From positions 1-28,983 of the IMG/VR virus record IMGVR_UViG_3300042381_000155: a stretch of DNA of 28,983 bases. The stretch is one strand, 5' to 3'. Made by a program: the position numbers and the translations under genes. This document shows, one piece after another, positions 3,949-9,305 of the stretch (positions are counted from its first letter, which is position 1; each line of letters starts with the position of its first letter). This stretch comes from a virus. The notes under the pieces are model-generated. The model worked only from the letters and a program-made list of their open reading frames with translations. It was not told where the DNA came from and did not search any database.

Positions 3949-4116
3949 TGTTTTTTCACCAATTTATTGAATTTAAATAATTGTAAACCATTGTTTTAAG
4001 GGTTTCTACTTATTTTAATAAAAGGCTCAGGAAGGCCATTTTTAGCCTCTCAGAGCGTCTCAAGCTGTTGCCCATACTTTCCCCTGAAAAAAAGTTGTTC
4101 ACACCAGTAGTTATAG

Positions 4117-4125
4117 TTATCCACA
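4117..4125 (+). promoter_or_regulatory. DnaA box TTATCCACA
   Basis: An exact match to the high-affinity DnaA box consensus TTATCCACA, in non-coding DNA. A related TTGTTCACA (one mismatch to TTATNCACA) lies 13 nt upstream at 4095-4103, and an inverted perfect box lies 27 nt downstream. Confidence 0.6.
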
Positions 4126-4152
4126 TTTTCACTCTTATATAAGACCAAAGCC

Positions 4153-4161
4153 TGTGAATAA
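4153..4161 (-). promoter_or_regulatory. DnaA box TTATTCACA (reverse strand)
   Basis: Plus-strand TGTGAATAA reads TTATTCACA on the minus strand, an exact match to TTATNCACA. It faces the box at 4117-4125 across 27 bp of AT-rich DNA containing TATATAAG. The pair supports an origin or DnaA-responsive regulatory region. Confidence 0.55.
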
Positions 4162-4187
4162 CTGGTACTGCATGGGGTATAAGCATT

Positions 4188-4198: not shown

Positions 4199-4314
4199 GT
4201 AAGGGTTTAAAGTTGTTAAACATAGGGTTTACACCTAGTGTTTTTTGTTTTTTGTTTGGTAATATACCTTTACTGACCTAGCAGTTTCTAGGGGTTTAAA
4301 TAGGCGTAAATATC

Positions 4315-4557
4315 ATGCATTGTGGAAAAACTTACTGGTCAATTCAGATTGACACTTTCAACCTTCAAACGAAAACACCAAAAGGTGAATTCACCCCTCT
4401 TCGCAGAAAACTACAGTTAGACTTAAAAACTGCACTTAAGAATAAAACCTCTTATGCAACAGAAAAAGCGGCAATCCAAGCACTTGGCAAATTGCCAGAA
4501 GACTTGAAATCTGTTTCTTACATTGCGGAAACAACACCAATTCACGGCATTTTCTAA
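4315..4557 (+). CDS. Hypothetical protein, first gene of the small-gene operon
   Basis: An 80-residue protein beginning MHCGKTYWSIQIDTF, basic in the middle (LRRKLQLDLKTALKNK), with no recognisable domain. The ATG is preceded by AAATAGGCGT, and the same 10-mer precedes the next gene at 4644, supporting this start. It is followed after 8 nt by an intrinsic terminator, so its transcript may be partly separated from the downstream operon. Function unknown. Confidence 0.65.
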   Translation: MHCGKTYWSIQIDTFNLQTKTPKGEFTPLRRKLQLDLKTALKNKTSYATEKAAIQALGKLPEDLKSVSYIAETTPIHGIF

Positions 4558-4565
4558 AATAGGGT

Positions 4566-4595
4566 AAGCCATAGGGTTTGTCCTTATGGCTTTTT
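4566..4595 (+). terminator. Rho-independent terminator after 4315-4557
   Basis: An 8-bp perfect stem, AAGCCATA at 4566-4573 with TATGGCTT at 4585-4592, can be extended by two G-C pairs in the loop. It ends in five T residues (4591-4595). It sits just after the stop at 4557 and would attenuate or end transcription before the gene at 4644. Confidence 0.7.
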
Positions 4596-4643
4596 ATTCT
4601 TTTAATCCGATAATCAATTTACTTTCAACAAATAGGCGTCATT

Positions 4644-4859
4644 ATGAAATATACAAAAGCTGTCGATGTCTGGGCATTGTCTCAAGATCAGCGCAAACAA
4701 TTACAAATTGGACAATGGGTCTTGGCGGGTTCTGCCAAGGGTCAATGGCTTGGACAAAAAGCCTCGGGTTCTGACGTTGCCGCTTGGCATCACAAAGGCA
4801 TCAAAGGATGGAAGGCCAAAGTGTCAACCCTTCGAGCCTATGCAAAGAATTGGGGCTAA
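4644..4859 (+). CDS. Hypothetical protein, Trp-rich
   Basis: A 71-residue protein rich in tryptophan (seven) and lysine, starting MKYTKAVDVWALSQDQRK and containing IGQWVLAG and GQWLGQK. This could be a small SH3-like or DNA-binding beta fold, but no family is recognised. The start is supported by AAATAGGCGT 5 nt upstream, a leader word shared with the gene at 4315. Its stop is 3 nt before the next ATG. An overlapping frame at 4666-4866 is less likely because it lacks its own ribosome-binding site. Confidence 0.65.
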   Translation: MKYTKAVDVWALSQDQRKQLQIGQWVLAGSAKGQWLGQKASGSDVAAWHHKGIKGWKAKVSTLRAYAKNWG

Positions 4860-4862
4860 GCC

Positions 4863-5114
4863 ATGAGATCAAAAACAATAATAGCCTCAACTTATGGGAT
4901 TGACCAATCCGAAATTGAAAATTATCGTTATCAATCCACACGGACAAAACAACCTATTTACTCCATTGGTGAGTATTATTTTTCTTGCGGTAAAAGAAAA
5001 CCTACAGATGACGTAGGCCATGAATGGTGTATTGACATTGACCAATTTTGGGCTGAACAAAACAAAACAATCCTTTGGTCTGCAAAATTTAAAACCTCAA
5101 AAGAGGGCGTTTAA
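4863..5114 (+). CDS. Hypothetical protein
   Basis: An 83-residue protein, MRSKTIIASTYGIDQSEIEN onward, rich in Tyr, Trp and Cys, with a C-terminal WCIDIDQFWAEQ segment. No domain is recognised. It follows the previous stop by 3 nt. Its own stop codon TAA is embedded in a GTTTAAAC palindrome at 5109-5116, directly before the next start. Confidence 0.65.
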   Translation: MRSKTIIASTYGIDQSEIENYRYQSTRTKQPIYSIGEYYFSCGKRKPTDDVGHEWCIDIDQFWAEQNKTILWSAKFKTSKEGV

Positions 5115-5119
5115 ACATC

Positions 5120-5377
5120 ATGCAAATTTATACATGGAAATATTTAGTCTGCTCAATGGCTATCACTGACCTTGCCGACCTAGAGATGAATGGATCAATC
5201 CCTGATGATTGGAAATTTACATTCAAAAAAGGCTCAACGCTTTACGATGAGGTGGGTTCAGCATGGCGAGAGAGATCAGAAAACACAGTCTATTTGTGCC
5301 ATAAAAATGCGCCCGACTCCAAACAGAGATGGGTTCACCCAGATACGATGATTGACGTTTATAAGGTATCACCATGA
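5120..5377 (+). CDS. Hypothetical protein
   Basis: An 85-residue protein, MQIYTWKYLVCSMAITDLAD onward, acidic overall, with a WRERSENTVYLCH segment. No recognised family. A GAGGG lies about 12 nt upstream of the ATG. The stop overlaps the next start in ATGA (5374-5377), indicating translational coupling to the small membrane peptide gene that follows. Confidence 0.65.
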   Translation: MQIYTWKYLVCSMAITDLADLEMNGSIPDDWKFTFKKGSTLYDEVGSAWRERSENTVYLCHKNAPDSKQRWVHPDTMIDVYKVSP

Positions 5378-5469
5378 AAAACACGATCTTGGACTACTTG
5401 ACGGCTATCGCCTTGGGGCTTGCCCTCTGTTGGGGTTTGATGGCTTATTTCGACATCTTGGTAAAGTGA
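5374..5469 (+). CDS. 31-aa single-pass membrane peptide
   Basis: ATG at 5374 (ATGA overlap with the previous stop) opens a 31-residue peptide, MKNTILDYLTAIALGLALCW onward, ending YFDILVK and TGA at 5469. Residues about 9-26 form one hydrophobic helix with a small-residue/Leu face (AIALGLALCWGLM). The size and membrane helix resemble phage micropeptides that inhibit or tune host membrane proteins, but nothing specific can be assigned. It is too short for standard ORF calling. The evidence is exact overlap chaining at both ends and the coherent membrane helix. Confidence 0.55.
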   Translation: MKNTILDYLTAIALGLALCWGLMAYFDILVK

Positions 5470-5543
5470 AATTTCAACGGGTAGGCTCACGGGTTGGGTC
5501 TATTCGGTGCAATGTCGCATCATTTAAAAGGTGTCAATCGTGA
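5466..5543 (+). CDS. Possible 25-aa basic micropeptide (GTG start)
   Basis: GTG at 5466 overlaps the preceding stop (GTGA) and opens a 25-residue basic peptide, starting VKFQRVGSRVGSIRC and ending FKRCQS, whose TGA overlaps the next likely GTG start (GTGA at 5540-5543). Both junctions fit the overlap chain of this operon. The peptide has no recognisable feature apart from its basic charge and two Cys. It could equally be a translated spacer with no function. Confidence 0.3.
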   Translation: MKFQRVGSRVGSIRCNVASFKRCQS

Positions 5544-6013
5544 ACAATCTATTAGCGCAAACTATTTGCCAAGCCTTCGATCAAAATCAATATCATTCAA
5601 AGTGTCTAAACACTGCCAAAGCCAACGCCCAATCCATGTTATCAGGGCGCACCCATTACGTTGACGATTCGACCTTGCGTTACTTTAATAGTCGCATTAC
5701 ATCGGCTCAACCTTCGACCTTTGGAATGTTTTTTCTTATAACTGAATCGGTGGGGAGAGAAAGTTATAACGGGAAACGTGGATTTAGAACTGTTCTCTTT
5801 GACATCAATGGACAAACTGTTTACCGCCCAAGCCTAGAGGAACTAGAAAACACTTCGATCAAAGCGCAGAAAACCTTTTACGCTTGGTTTGAGTCTTTTA
5901 ACCCTGAGACTTATTACAGTGAACAAATTAAACATGAAGTCATCAAGACCTACCGCAAATCTATTCGACTATCAGAGTGTTTAAACGCATTGAATGAGGC
6001 GGTTTCAGTATGA
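5540..6013 (+). CDS. Hypothetical protein (about 157 aa)
   Basis: This is the largest gene of the small-gene operon. The likely start is GTG at 5540, because AAAAGG at 5526-5531 lies 8 nt upstream and GTGA overlaps the preceding frame; an in-frame GTG at 5531 is the alternative. The protein has MLSGRTHYVDDSTLRYFNSR near the N-terminus, then a beta-rich GFRTVLFDINGQTVYRPSLE segment, and an all-helical C-terminus. It resembles unnamed proteins of other environmental phages in my recollection, but I know no function. The stop overlaps the next gene in ATGA. Confidence 0.7.
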   Translation: MNNLLAQTICQAFDQNQYHSKCLNTAKANAQSMLSGRTHYVDDSTLRYFNSRITSAQPSTFGMFFLITESVGRESYNGKRGFRTVLFDINGQTVYRPSLEELENTSIKAQKTFYAWFESFNPETYYSEQIKHEVIKTYRKSIRLSECLNALNEAVSV

Positions 6014-6252
6014 ACAAATACACAATCACTCACGGTTCAATCGCTTCAGTTCAATATGTGACCTTACCCGATGGGCAAAAGGTAATTGTGACCGATGCAA
6101 GGGATGGCTCAGAAATAGAATTGCCAAAACTACCCATAAAGGTTCAAGCATTTGTCAATCGTCAATTCGGCATTATCTTTGCGCTTCCTTACGACAGCCG
6201 ACAAATCTTTATTGATAATTCAATCCCATTTGATATAGAGGTGACAGAATGA
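6010..6252 (+). CDS. Hypothetical protein, beta-rich
   Basis: An 80-residue protein starting MNKYTITHGSIASVQYVTLP with alternating hydrophobic beta-strand pattern (GQKVIVTDARDGSEIELPKL). No family is recognised. ATGA overlaps join it to both neighbours, so it is translated as part of the chain. Small all-beta proteins in such operons are sometimes inhibitors, but this is not evidence of function. Confidence 0.65.
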   Translation: MNKYTITHGSIASVQYVTLPDGQKVIVTDARDGSEIELPKLPIKVQAFVNRQFGIIFALPYDSRQIFIDNSIPFDIEVTE

Positions 6253-6455
6253 GAAAACCCCCAAGCGGGTTCAAAGCCCGATCATTTGATGAGCGAATCT
6301 GTGATCTTGACCATTTGCAATTTACGCACAAGAAACGAGCCAAACGAGGGTTTTATTATTGGTCAGAGAAAAATCCAGACCAAATATTGCACGAGTTTCA
6401 TTTGTCAGACTTTGCCAAGTGCAGAGCGTTTAAACAACTTAGGATTCAATCATGA
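6249..6455 (+). CDS. Hypothetical basic protein
   Basis: A 68-residue, strongly basic and aromatic protein, MRKPPSGFKARSFDERICDL onward. ATGA overlaps occur at both ends (6249-6252, 6452-6455). A GTTTAAAC octamer at 6428-6435 lies in its last codons, 16 nt before the next start. Function unknown. Confidence 0.65.
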   Translation: MRKPPSGFKARSFDERICDLDHLQFTHKKRAKRGFYYWSEKNPDQILHEFHLSDFAKCRAFKQLRIQS

Positions 6456-6655
6456 CCAAACAAGATATACAAGAAATTGCAGAAAATGCTTTGCATGAGG
6501 CTTGCCGACACATTCAAGACGCTTTAGGGGTTAAGACTGGAGATAATGCCGCCTATTTTTTCAGCGGTGAAGCTGAAGACACCATCTATCAAATTTTTCG
6601 ACAATACATTGAAGATGAATTGATGATTAAAGCCTACGAAAACGAAAAGGATTAA
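6452..6655 (+). CDS. Hypothetical acidic helical protein
   Basis: A 67-residue acidic protein, MTKQDIQEIAENALHEACRH onward, predicted largely helical by pattern, ending MIKAYENEKD. The strong negative charge recalls nucleic-acid-mimic or anti-defence proteins, but charge alone is weak evidence. It is coupled by ATGA to the preceding gene; the next gene follows 3 nt after its stop. Confidence 0.65.
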   Translation: MTKQDIQEIAENALHEACRHIQDALGVKTGDNAAYFFSGEAEDTIYQIFRQYIEDELMIKAYENEKD

Positions 6656-6658
6656 ATT

Positions 6659-6835
6659 ATGACTTTTAGAACTTATCTCATTGAGTTTTACCCATATCCT
6701 GATTGTGTTCACGCTGAATATGACGAAACAAGCGCAGAATCTTTAGAGGATGCGGTGGCAGAACTTAAAAAGTATCACCCAGAAGCTGAGATTTTGAACA
6801 CCTACATACACACAGCGTGTTTAAACGATCTATGA
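6659..6835 (+). CDS. 58-aa hypothetical protein
   Basis: ATG at 6659, 3 nt after the previous stop, opens a 58-residue protein, MTFRTYLIEFYPYPDCVHAE onward. It has a beta-strand-like N-terminus, an acidic helix (SAESLEDAVAELKKYHPEAE) and ends HTACLNDL. The beta-alpha pattern and acidic helix suggest a small folded domain. Its stop overlaps a further tiny ATG frame (ATGA at 6832-6835). A GTTTAAAC octamer at 6819-6826 lies in its last codons. No function recognised. Confidence 0.6.
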   Translation: MTFRTYLIEFYPYPDCVHAEYDETSAESLEDAVAELKKYHPEAEILNTYIHTACLNDL

Positions 6836-6885
6836 TTTATGCTTGCATCGCTCTAATTCTGCGAATACTTGGCGGGAAACGCTAA
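6832..6885 (+). CDS. Possible 17-aa hydrophobic micropeptide
   Basis: ATGA overlap at 6832 opens a 17-codon frame reading MIYACIALILRILGGKR, hydrophobic with a basic tail, ending 8 nt before the operon terminator. The coupling and amphipathic composition are suggestive, but so short a frame can occur by chance. Confidence 0.3.
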   Translation: MIYACIALILRILGGKR

Positions 6886-8070: not shown

Positions 8071-8096
8071 GTGCAATACCATAGGGATTTACCCTA
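8071..8096 (-). promoter_or_regulatory. Promoter/operator module with AGGG-CCCT dyad
   Basis: The dyad TAGGG-ATTTA-CCCTA (8082-8096) lies 5 nt from GTGCAA (8071-8076), which reads TTGCAC on the minus strand and could be a -35 box. An AT-rich TAATTT about 18 nt further is a possible -10 before the gene at 8030. The same layout with the same 5-nt spacing recurs at 10714-10741. The dyad overlaps the stop codon of the upstream gene at 8089-8091. Regulation is inferred. Confidence 0.5.
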
Positions 8097-8355
8097 ATGT
8101 CTGAATCATTCGCAACGCGGCTTCAGGGTTGTCAATTCTGCACAAGGTACTTCCCGACCAGTTCTCAAAAAAGTCTGTTTGTAGCTTGGTAAACTTCTTT
8201 TTATGGTCTGTTTTGATCTCTACCAAAAAGGTGTGGTTTTTATACCCTACCAATAGGTCAACTGGCAAACCAATAATCCAAACGTAAGCACCCGCAGATC
8301 GCAAGGCACTCACTATTTGGTCTTGATTGGCATCTACCCTTGCGGCATATCTCAT
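8089..8355 (-). CDS. VRR-NUC-like PD-(D/E)XK nuclease
   Basis: An 88-residue protein with the compact fold pattern of VRR-NUC nucleases: an N-terminal helix (NQDQIVSALRSAGAYVWIIG), then PVDLLVG with D33, then HTFLVEIKTD with E46 and K48, then KLQTDFFENW. D33, E46 and K48 fit the D-(E)XK metal site. Stand-alone VRR-NUC proteins are common in phage replication/recombination modules and cut branched DNA. It is translationally coupled (ATGA at 8352-8355) to the preceding gene and ends the operon that contains the Mom-like gene. Confidence 0.75.
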   Translation of the reverse strand: MRYAARVDANQDQIVSALRSAGAYVWIIGLPVDLLVGYKNHTFLVEIKTDHKKKFTKLQTDFFENWSGSTLCRIDNPEAALRMIQTLG

Positions 8356-8558: not shown

Positions 8559-8652
8559 CAGTTAACTCCAATGCAATATTGATAAGACGTACGGGATATG
8601 GTACGCCTTCCTTAACTCTGTCCAACAGTCTCATAGCTTCAAAATAGTTCAT
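8545..8652 (-). CDS. 35-aa conserved-looking small protein
   Basis: ATG at 8652-8650 overlaps the Mom-like gene's stop (ATGA), and a TAG at 8547-8545 closes a 35-residue frame, MNYFEAMRLLDRVKEGVPYP onward, ending ALELTGDLE. The sequence is a tidy two-helix pattern (MRLLDRVKEG, then PVRLINIALELTGD). Similar tiny proteins occur in other phages to my recollection, without known role. It is missed by length cut-offs. Confidence 0.6.
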   Translation of the reverse strand: MNYFEAMRLLDRVKEGVPYPVRLINIALELTGDLE

Positions 8653-9305
8653 ACAAATAAAAGTTGTTGGGTTTTTACAGTTGTTCCAGAGTCATATCTC
8701 TGTGAGTCGCCTTTGGGATACGGCATAACTTCGTATTTCAGCTTAGATCGCATGACTTTTTTATCAGTCTTTGACCCGTGAAAGATGATGTAACGATGCT
8801 TCCTAGATCGTTCGACATAGTAAAAATCATCACCATGAAGCTCTTTTATCTCTGCCAAGGTCAAACCATCGCCAATGGTTTTGGCGTGTTTATGCTCTTG
8901 TCCTTTAATTGTCCAATCAATTCTGTTTGCTGATAAACCCGTATAAAGGAAATTGGTGGCTTGATAAACGTACCCGACATGACCTTTGCTTGTGTCGGCA
9001 AACGAAACCACAATCATTGGTTTTGGCAATAGTTTGATTGAGTTCGCAACAAGGAATGATGCTTCGTTTTTGTGGTTGTCCAACAAACAGACTCGGTTTA
9101 GTTCTAAAACTTTGTCTGAGTATTCTTTGCCACAGATTCCCATGCAAAGTGGTGGCGAGGCGGGAATCCCATAAGTTACTACGCCAACCAGAATGTCATC
9201 TTTGTAAAGCCCAAACGCAAACATTATTTGTGGCATCCGCTTGGCATAGTGTTTTTCAAGCAACCAAGGCTCAACTTCAAAGTTGTTTATTGGCAACACT
9301 TTCAT
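8649..9305 (-). CDS. Mom-like DNA-modification protein (GNAT-related)
   Basis: A 218-residue protein resembling the phage Mu Mom family, which modifies adenine in DNA to a methylcarbamoyl form and so blocks many restriction enzymes. Visible landmarks are VGVVTYGIPASPPL at residues 37-50, CGKEYSDKVLELNRVCL, NEASFLVANS, VVSFADTSKGHVGYVYQATN and ERSRKHRYIIF. This order is typical of Mom-like proteins recognised in environmental phages. The Shine-Dalgarno GAGGAAAA overlaps the end of the upstream gene, and both ends show ATGA overlaps. No Com-like translational activator is evident. The true modification of this phage's DNA is unknown. Confidence 0.8.
   Translation of the reverse strand: MKVLPINNFEVEPWLLEKHYAKRMPQIMFAFGLYKDDILVGVVTYGIPASPPLCMGICGKEYSDKVLELNRVCLLDNHKNEASFLVANSIKLLPKPMIVVSFADTSKGHVGYVYQATNFLYTGLSANRIDWTIKGQEHKHAKTIGDGLTLAEIKELHGDDFYYVERSRKHRYIIFHGSKTDKKVMRSKLKYEVMPYPKGDSQRYDSGTTVKTQQLLFV

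Follow-up and report, generated by a model that had tools for sequence, protein, structure and literature searches.

Cluster K mycobacteriophages carry Start-Associated Sequences (SAS, ESAS) with the 13-base consensus GGGATAGGAGCCC (partial text of PMC3203893), and in archaeal viruses a shared promoter element stands before early genes, some of them directed against host defence (partial text of PMC11065993). Here we describe an operon of small genes that likewise has a recurring sequence before gene starts. It lies in an uncultured freshwater phage represented by the 28,983-base virus record IMGVR_UViG_3300042381_000155, the whole of which we call the window, and comprises 11 genes on the + strand (g1 to g11, 4315-6885) followed by a terminator-like stem. 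A preliminary description, made from the window alone, had proposed a candidate host-takeover or anti-defence locus. After comparison with relatives we lean towards reading it as a phage cargo operon, in which a kept frame carries exchangeable groups of small genes that adapt the phage to its host.

Turnover of gene content between relatives

IMG/VR was scanned with g4 (27 loci), with g6, g3 and g2 (6, 3 and 11 loci), with TerL (the best 80 of at least 600 relatives) and with an alignment of g5 (the best 80 of 270 relatives). Pooled with the window, these scans gave 202 sequences, from which 77 without a border gene, one with its borders on opposite strands and 26 duplicates were dropped, leaving 98 distinct segments, a segment being the stretch between the left-border gene and the right-border gene of the operon. 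Because loci fetched with g4 or g5 cannot show how frequent those genes are, we counted separately the 38 TerL-fetched segments, that is, the TerL relatives closest to the window whose contigs happen to cover the operon. A simple, purpose-made gene caller found 664 genes in the 98 segments, in 80 multi-member families and 39 single genes with g5 counted in; it overlooked g5 in 11 of 67 g5-holding segments. No close cultured phage was found among the 1276 records that match TerL, all of them below 60% identity, with the 20 matches listed at 26-29%.

Variable gene content across related genomes, a check set beforehand, proved strongly positive. The 38 TerL-fetched segments show 35 distinct forms of gene content, and next to g5 (37/38) the commonest family reaches at most 9/38. 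Among the 127 pairs whose TerL identity is 98% or more, window included, a mean of 5.5% of non-g5 families is shared and 71% of pairs share none, figures that include pairs with loci holding g5 alone. The mean Jaccard index of the exchangeable genes (hereafter cargo) in the same genomes is 0.036 without g5 and 0.150 with it. Two flanking controls of 2.5 kb each score higher, 0.312 over the - strand genes next to the operon (30 loci) and 0.562 towards the terminase (38 loci), so that its surroundings vary too, but far less. In its minimal form the site holds g5 alone in 233-277 bases, as seen in four TerL-fetched loci (L035, L058, L067, L099) and in L189 outside that set.

With kept borders around differing content, and with a minimal form, the locus qualifies as a hypervariable cargo hotspot. 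It is not a core module in which all genes are kept, as only g5 and g11 are. Strict conservation, which the preliminary description had named as grounds for dropping its proposal, applies to g5 and nearly to g11, neither of which it had set apart. We had considered g4, g8 and g10 as a conserved core, as they appear in g4-fetched loci, and set this aside on finding them in 0/38, 0/38 and 2/38 of the TerL-fetched segments. Homology between relatives and the window often starts at gene starts, namely at 6832 (g11), 6656-6659 (g10), 6451-6452 (g9), 6238-6249 (g8), 6001-6010 (g7) and 5374 (g5), and at 5100-5115 just before g4. Cargo order is kept, because only five of the 80 multi-member families sit on both sides of g5. 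One 68,218-base record, IMGVR_UViG_3300043446_000617, has two TerL copies with different cargo (L082 and L084), as if two related genomes had been joined in assembly.

The micropeptides g5 and g11

A profile built from 56 of its sequences finds g5 in 97 of the 98 segments, 37 of the 38 TerL-fetched ones among them. The peptide, of 31 amino acids (aa), has a single hydrophobic stretch. Two residues, D27 and L29, never vary; F26 is kept in 98% of sequences and D7, L18, C19, G21 and K31 in 97%. Entropy by codon position is 1.45 at the third position versus 0.80 and 0.44 at the others, and the pooled ratio of nonsynonymous to synonymous polymorphism (pN/pS) is 0.31 in frame, while the two other frames give 0.90 and 1.79; synonymous sites are close to saturation. 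Neither g5 nor g4 has a match in 50,697 phage records, a search whose length limit g11 falls below. Distant copies of g5 were found on a contig of a Rhodoferax metagenome-assembled genome and in L028, so that g5 extends beyond this TerL lineage. On L028, which is a contig of a distant phage, g5 is accompanied by g4, g9-like, GP88-like and further cargo families, and the start motif described below is absent.

A profile finds the closing peptide g11, which reads MIYACIALILRILGGKR in the window, in 87 of the 98 segments and in 31 of the 38 that were TerL-fetched; the misses include L085, which has an exact-pattern copy. The distance of g11 to the right border is 119-199 bases in 82 loci and 398-838 bases in five. 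In 85 of 87 copies the gene begins with ATGA or GTGA, permitting overlap with the preceding stop. Its pN/pS is 0.23 versus 0.98 and 1.37 in the other frames (56 sequences). It was not found in the TerL-fetched loci that hold g5 alone. A scan with the g11 pattern gave 102 stretches, 80 of which were made into loci: a marker of the lineage is present in 80/80, the right-border gene lies within 500 bases in 75/80, and g5 is present in 47/47 of those with more than 3.3 kb before g11. Judged by these ratios, g5 and g11 are under protein-level selection. Both are hydrophobic and are predicted membrane peptides, in line with the one or two membrane micropeptides of the preliminary description.

Leaders and the start-associated sequence

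In front of first genes, three leader elements were recognised by eye: a terminator-like stem with a T-run, a hexamer resembling a -10 box, and a dyad. A profile made from 35 operon leaders, none of them the window's, matches the window significantly at 4223-4316 (E 8.7e-12) and at 4572-4641 (E 1.8e-7), the third-best match being non-significant (E 0.71). As the two significant matches lie before g1 and between g1 and g2, the stem-loop after g1, which had been taken as the gene's own terminator, is real and belongs to the second leader. Owing to this leader g1 looks like a separate unit, and it seems to have been inserted ahead of an operon start that is older.

Both leaders contain the motif TAGG[CT]GTNA (TAGGYGTNA; consensus AATAGGYGTNAA), first noticed before g1 and g2. 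The 220 kb of segments hold 142 sense copies, 129 of them shortly before an ATG, and three antisense copies; the 1.59 Mb of remaining strands of the same contigs hold 36 copies, three of them before an ATG. The motif is about 28 times denser in operon segments than elsewhere on these contigs. It was defined on the same data, and the strand and outside contrasts serve as its test.

In leader 1 the dyad reads CCTAG-CAGTTT-CTAGG (4277-4292). A stem of at least five pairs is present in 25 of 33 non-redundant leaders (from 44 with the motif), compared with 16.8% in shuffles. In 14 chosen examples 70 of 70 cells pair without a G-U, both sides vary in four of the five pairs, and covariation is 0.97 versus 0.195 in shuffles; the count of both-side changes alone is no better than in shuffles (264/500). 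We do not call the dyad an RNA hairpin, because a dimer-bound DNA operator would look alike and because the RNA fold of the window's leader is no better than that of shuffles (z 0.02).

Layout of the operon

The small-gene operon described earlier is confirmed with 11 genes (Table 1). A further candidate of 25 aa with a GTG start, at 5466-5543, was rejected as a gene, since in relatives its frame continues or the GTG is lost. Four-base ATGA overlaps are found at five of the ten junctions, so that genes said to be mostly overlapping do so at about half. The operon is opposite the packaging genes, as had been stated, with TerL on the - strand; TerS was named by position alone, as the small gene before TerL, and has no family match. 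The closing stem-loop is present where a strong terminator had been proposed, although its RNA fold reaches only z -1.3 against shuffles. The acidic or basic character of several products also holds, with a net charge of -9 for g9 and g10, +9 for g2, +7 for g8 and +5 for g1.

Table 1. Features of the operon and its surroundings in the window
Feature	Position	Strand	Description
Origin-like stretch	4075-4163		TTATCCACA box and CTTATATAAG; adjoins operon; itself accessory
Leader 1	4223-4316	+	Stem and T-run, -10-like TAATAT, dyad, start-associated sequence from 4301
g1	4315-4557	+	80 aa; own unit between two leaders; relatives in L024 and L114
Leader 2	4566-4646	+	Stem-loop 4566-4592, promoter-like stretch, start-associated sequence at 4633; dyad degenerate
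g2	4644-4859	+	71 aa; phrog_21585
g3	4863-5114	+	83 aa; rare cargo, 3 IMG/VR loci
g4	5120-5377	+	85 aa (73 aa if started at 5156); strongly conserved in loci that have it
g5	5374-5469	+	31-aa hydrophobic micropeptide; near-universal gene of the locus
Spacer	5466-5543	+	Two RNA hairpins
g6	5540-6013	+	157 aa, GTG start; cargo
g7	6010-6252	+	80 aa; cargo; 11/98 segments
g8	6249-6455	+	68 aa, basic; cargo
g9	6452-6655	+	67 aa, acidic; cargo; 19/98 segments
g10	6659-6835	+	58 aa, acidic; cargo; 24/98 segments, 2/38 TerL-fetched
g11	6832-6885	+	17-aa hydrophobic, basic micropeptide closing the operon
Terminator-like stem-loop	6892-6911	+	Homology block from g11 through stem common to many relatives

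In seven sequences of the spacer between g5 and g6, 99.1% of hairpin cells pair, many as G-U, four pairs change on both sides, and covariation is 0.339 versus 0.203 in shuffles, a value reached by 0/500. Gaps between cassettes in relatives, for example after g5 in L003, L022, L072 and L081, also tend to fold better than shuffles; among 50 non-redundant gaps the median z is -2.3 and 60% lie below -2. Because of this folding, the operon mRNA may be divided by hairpins between cassettes.

Cargo genes and neighbourhood

Ten window proteins were searched against Pfam and PHROGs (g11 being too short) and none matched an enzyme family, in agreement with the preliminary description. The only clear family is that of g2, which matches phrog_21585, of unknown function (3.7e-17), and has similar proteins in 27 phage records. 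The 27 g4 loci are all g4-fetched (0/38 TerL-fetched), and g4 has a median ratio of nonsynonymous to synonymous substitution (dN/dS) of 0.05. Besides its six IMG/VR loci, g6 has partial relatives, 40-45% identical, in four cultured-phage records, and a match to Pfam DUF7447 below the cut-off. The label 'alnB' of its relative in MW202825 was not followed, as this is an UNVERIFIED_CONTAM record; two 29-aa open reading frames of MW202825, when translated, are not g5. The caller places the g8 family in 6/98 segments; tblastn finds g8-like DNA in more g4-fetched loci, where the caller picked other frames or starts. Predicted structures are of low confidence (mean pLDDT, the predicted local distance difference test, 44.5 for g4 and 46.8 for g6), and Foldseek with this g6 model found nothing at E 0.001 or better. 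Median dN/dS, measured in twelve cargo families (in two of these from no more than four pairs), is 0.035-0.284, by which measure these families are under protein-level selection.

In the cargo of relatives, one representative matches part of the ArdC-N domain (ArdcN, 5.1e-7, above the Pfam cut-off), and its family, by our own clustering as in the counts that follow, is present in 10/98 segments. A beta-clamp-like family is present in 29/98; its PHROGs name, 'RusA-like resolvase', was dropped, as Pfam and NCBIfam both give DNA polymerase III beta. Two families match GP88 through single representatives (13/98 and 10/98 segments), a family with an SprT-like representative just below the Pfam cut-off is present in 17/98, and one representative matches DUF7222. 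One of the 84 representatives scanned matches TreK of Staphylococcus phage K-type viruses (6.4e-20). The same 84 gave one weak match in PADLOC (SspB, 1.2e-4), which does not mark the locus as a defence hotspot. By family match, the cargo would include one anti-restriction-like kind and one replication-like kind, the rest being without an assigned role.

Next to leader 1 lies an origin-like stretch, a candidate origin, with a TTATCCACA box (the DnaA-box consensus). The stretch is 83% identical over 89 bases to a non-coding stretch of Limnohabitans phage DC31. Apart from DC31, a query of 4050-4200 matches 29 of the 201 other loci fetched, in some cases through the same contig fetched twice. From this match and the distant g5 copy on the Rhodoferax contig, Limnohabitans or Rhodoferax would be a guess at the host. 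An exact search of genome_contigs with its 27-base core gave no match. DC31 has g2-like and GP88-like genes near its copy, and cargo and origin-like stretch therefore co-occur in an unrelated phage.

The - strand genes facing the operon include, further on, a Mom-like protein and an O-like replication protein. The Mom-like DNA modification protein (8649-9305, - strand; PF25680, 1.2e-36) is present in many g4-fetched relatives and, although outside the operon, is likely an anti-restriction trait. A small endonuclease-like protein is encoded at 8089-8355 on the - strand (phrog_93, 5.9e-7; Pfam SduA_C, 0.0076, below the cut-off).

Interpretation of the locus

Sequence comparison shows a kept frame, exchange of content, breaks that often fall at gene starts, a recurring start sequence and protein-level selection on g5, g11 and the twelve cargo families measured; the operon probably tunes the phage to its host. 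In the cargo operon that we propose, the kept frame would be formed by the leader, the start-associated sequence, g5 and usually the closing g11 with the terminator, with exchangeable groups of small genes inserted before and after g5. Early transcription would start from promoters in the leaders. Exchange could proceed by homologous recombination through the shared patches of leader, g5 and g11-terminator, perhaps assisted by the phage's own Sak single-strand annealing protein, encoded elsewhere in the window. The cargo products would then adapt the phage to the host strain by anti-restriction, other counter-defence or takeover, while g5 may act in the host membrane in all hosts.

Several observations weigh against this reading. 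One of the 98 segments, L103 (4733-6915), lacks g5 and has a single short open reading frame called; we regard it as a rearranged locus or a chimeric contig. Some homology blocks start or end inside genes, for example at 5397, 5438, 6479 and 6648. A sigma-70 promoter scan gave 11 sites versus 11.4 in shuffles, none in the leaders, which is why the leader promoters are put forward as inferred. The start motif precedes only 120 of the 664 called genes: it stands before 43 of 98 first genes, three of 81 non-first g5 copies and none of 210 genes that overlap their predecessor or follow within 3 bases, and therefore marks some cassette starts, not all. Finally, the ten window proteins searched include no known anti-defence family or inhibitor, and relatives carry the beta-clamp-like family with other DNA-metabolism cargo. 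The original host-takeover or anti-defence proposal thus draws support from the variable content and the ArdC-N-like cargo of relatives and is weakened by the lack of a match to a known inhibitor among the window's products, by the single weak PADLOC match and by the replication-like cargo of relatives.

This cargo bears directly on a second explanation, that the locus is an accessory replication or recombination operon whose products modulate DNA synthesis beside the origin-like element rather than host defence. The beta-clamp-like family and the adjoining origin-like stretch fit, as do the single-strand annealing protein and the O-like protein that other parts of the window encode. The origin-like stretch, however, is missing from the minimal loci, which have no room for it; most families lack a DNA-metabolism match, and so fast a turnover would be atypical of replication genes. 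We consider this explanation unlikely.

Less probable still, and in our judgement doubtful, is a superinfection-exclusion or immunity locus, in which membrane-located g5 (and g11) would block related phages and the phage-specific leader dyad would be the operator of a phage regulator. That g5 is the kept gene, and that the dyad varies symmetrically between phages without a G-U pair in 70 cells, would be expected of such a locus. Against this, dyad class has no visible link to the identity of the one helix-turn-helix protein examined (17 loci, no statistic made), no exclusion protein family was matched, and most of the cargo would be left unexplained. Neutral mosaicism, with functionless small genes coming and going, would account for the extreme turnover and the g5-only loci but is highly improbable in view of the low dN/dS of the twelve cargo families, the gene order kept relative to g5 and the recurring start signal.

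Within the cargo operon that we favour, what is most clearly new is a pair of micropeptides kept around cargo that is exchanged. It is tempting to speculate, more tentatively than for the operon as a whole, that g5 and g11 form a new phage membrane-micropeptide pair that is the purpose of the operon rather than part of its cargo. In such a scheme g5 might be needed in every host, for example for blocking superinfection or disarming a membrane-bound host process, g11 might join wherever cargo follows downstream, and the leader, together with the start-associated sequence, could serve as a plug-in site for almost any small gene. Two very small kept peptides, of a kind that gene callers can miss, are named here. 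Together with the leader and the start-associated sequence they provide a sequence rule by which candidate genes for host interaction can be found in this lineage of uncultured freshwater phages, which is useful where homology to known inhibitors mostly fails, as for the 80 multi-member families and 39 single genes of the present set.

Comparison with known systems

A text search of the literature, which cannot look up sequences, found nothing on this operon. The comparisons that follow rest on partial texts of the cited sources. As with the SAS of Cluster K, a short asymmetric sequence lies a few bases before starts in nearly one orientation, among non-structural genes, and about half of the copies there have an inverted repeat just upstream, as here; in Cluster K, the way the repeats deviate lent no support to RNA pairing. 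The consensus is different, AATAGGYGTNAA in place of the 13-base GGGATAGGAGCCC, and the motif here is concentrated in one hypervariable operon (PMC3203893). As in the archaeal viruses, dissimilar small genes stand under one common upstream sequence; those viruses, however, have archaeal promoter elements before mostly single genes, whereas here a bacterial phage carries a leader and a translation-start sequence, and the anti-defence role is a candidate only (PMC11065993).

The hotspots of P2-like phages and P4-like satellites are likewise sites of variation within related phages, but they hold anti-phage defence systems, in contrast to the small genes, kept micropeptides and near absence of PADLOC matches found here (PMC9122126). 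The SPO1 host takeover module is similar in that it groups mostly small genes, and its promoters and ribosome binding sites are characteristic (PMC6873191), and the accessory genes of Escherichia coli phages screened in that host are variable small genes too, some acting in counter-defence (PMC12373910). Early expression and growth inhibition were shown for the SPO1 module and the E. coli phage genes were assayed, whereas the present locus is known from its sequence. The locus would appear to work like a mixture of these known kinds while, by its sequence, belonging to none of them.

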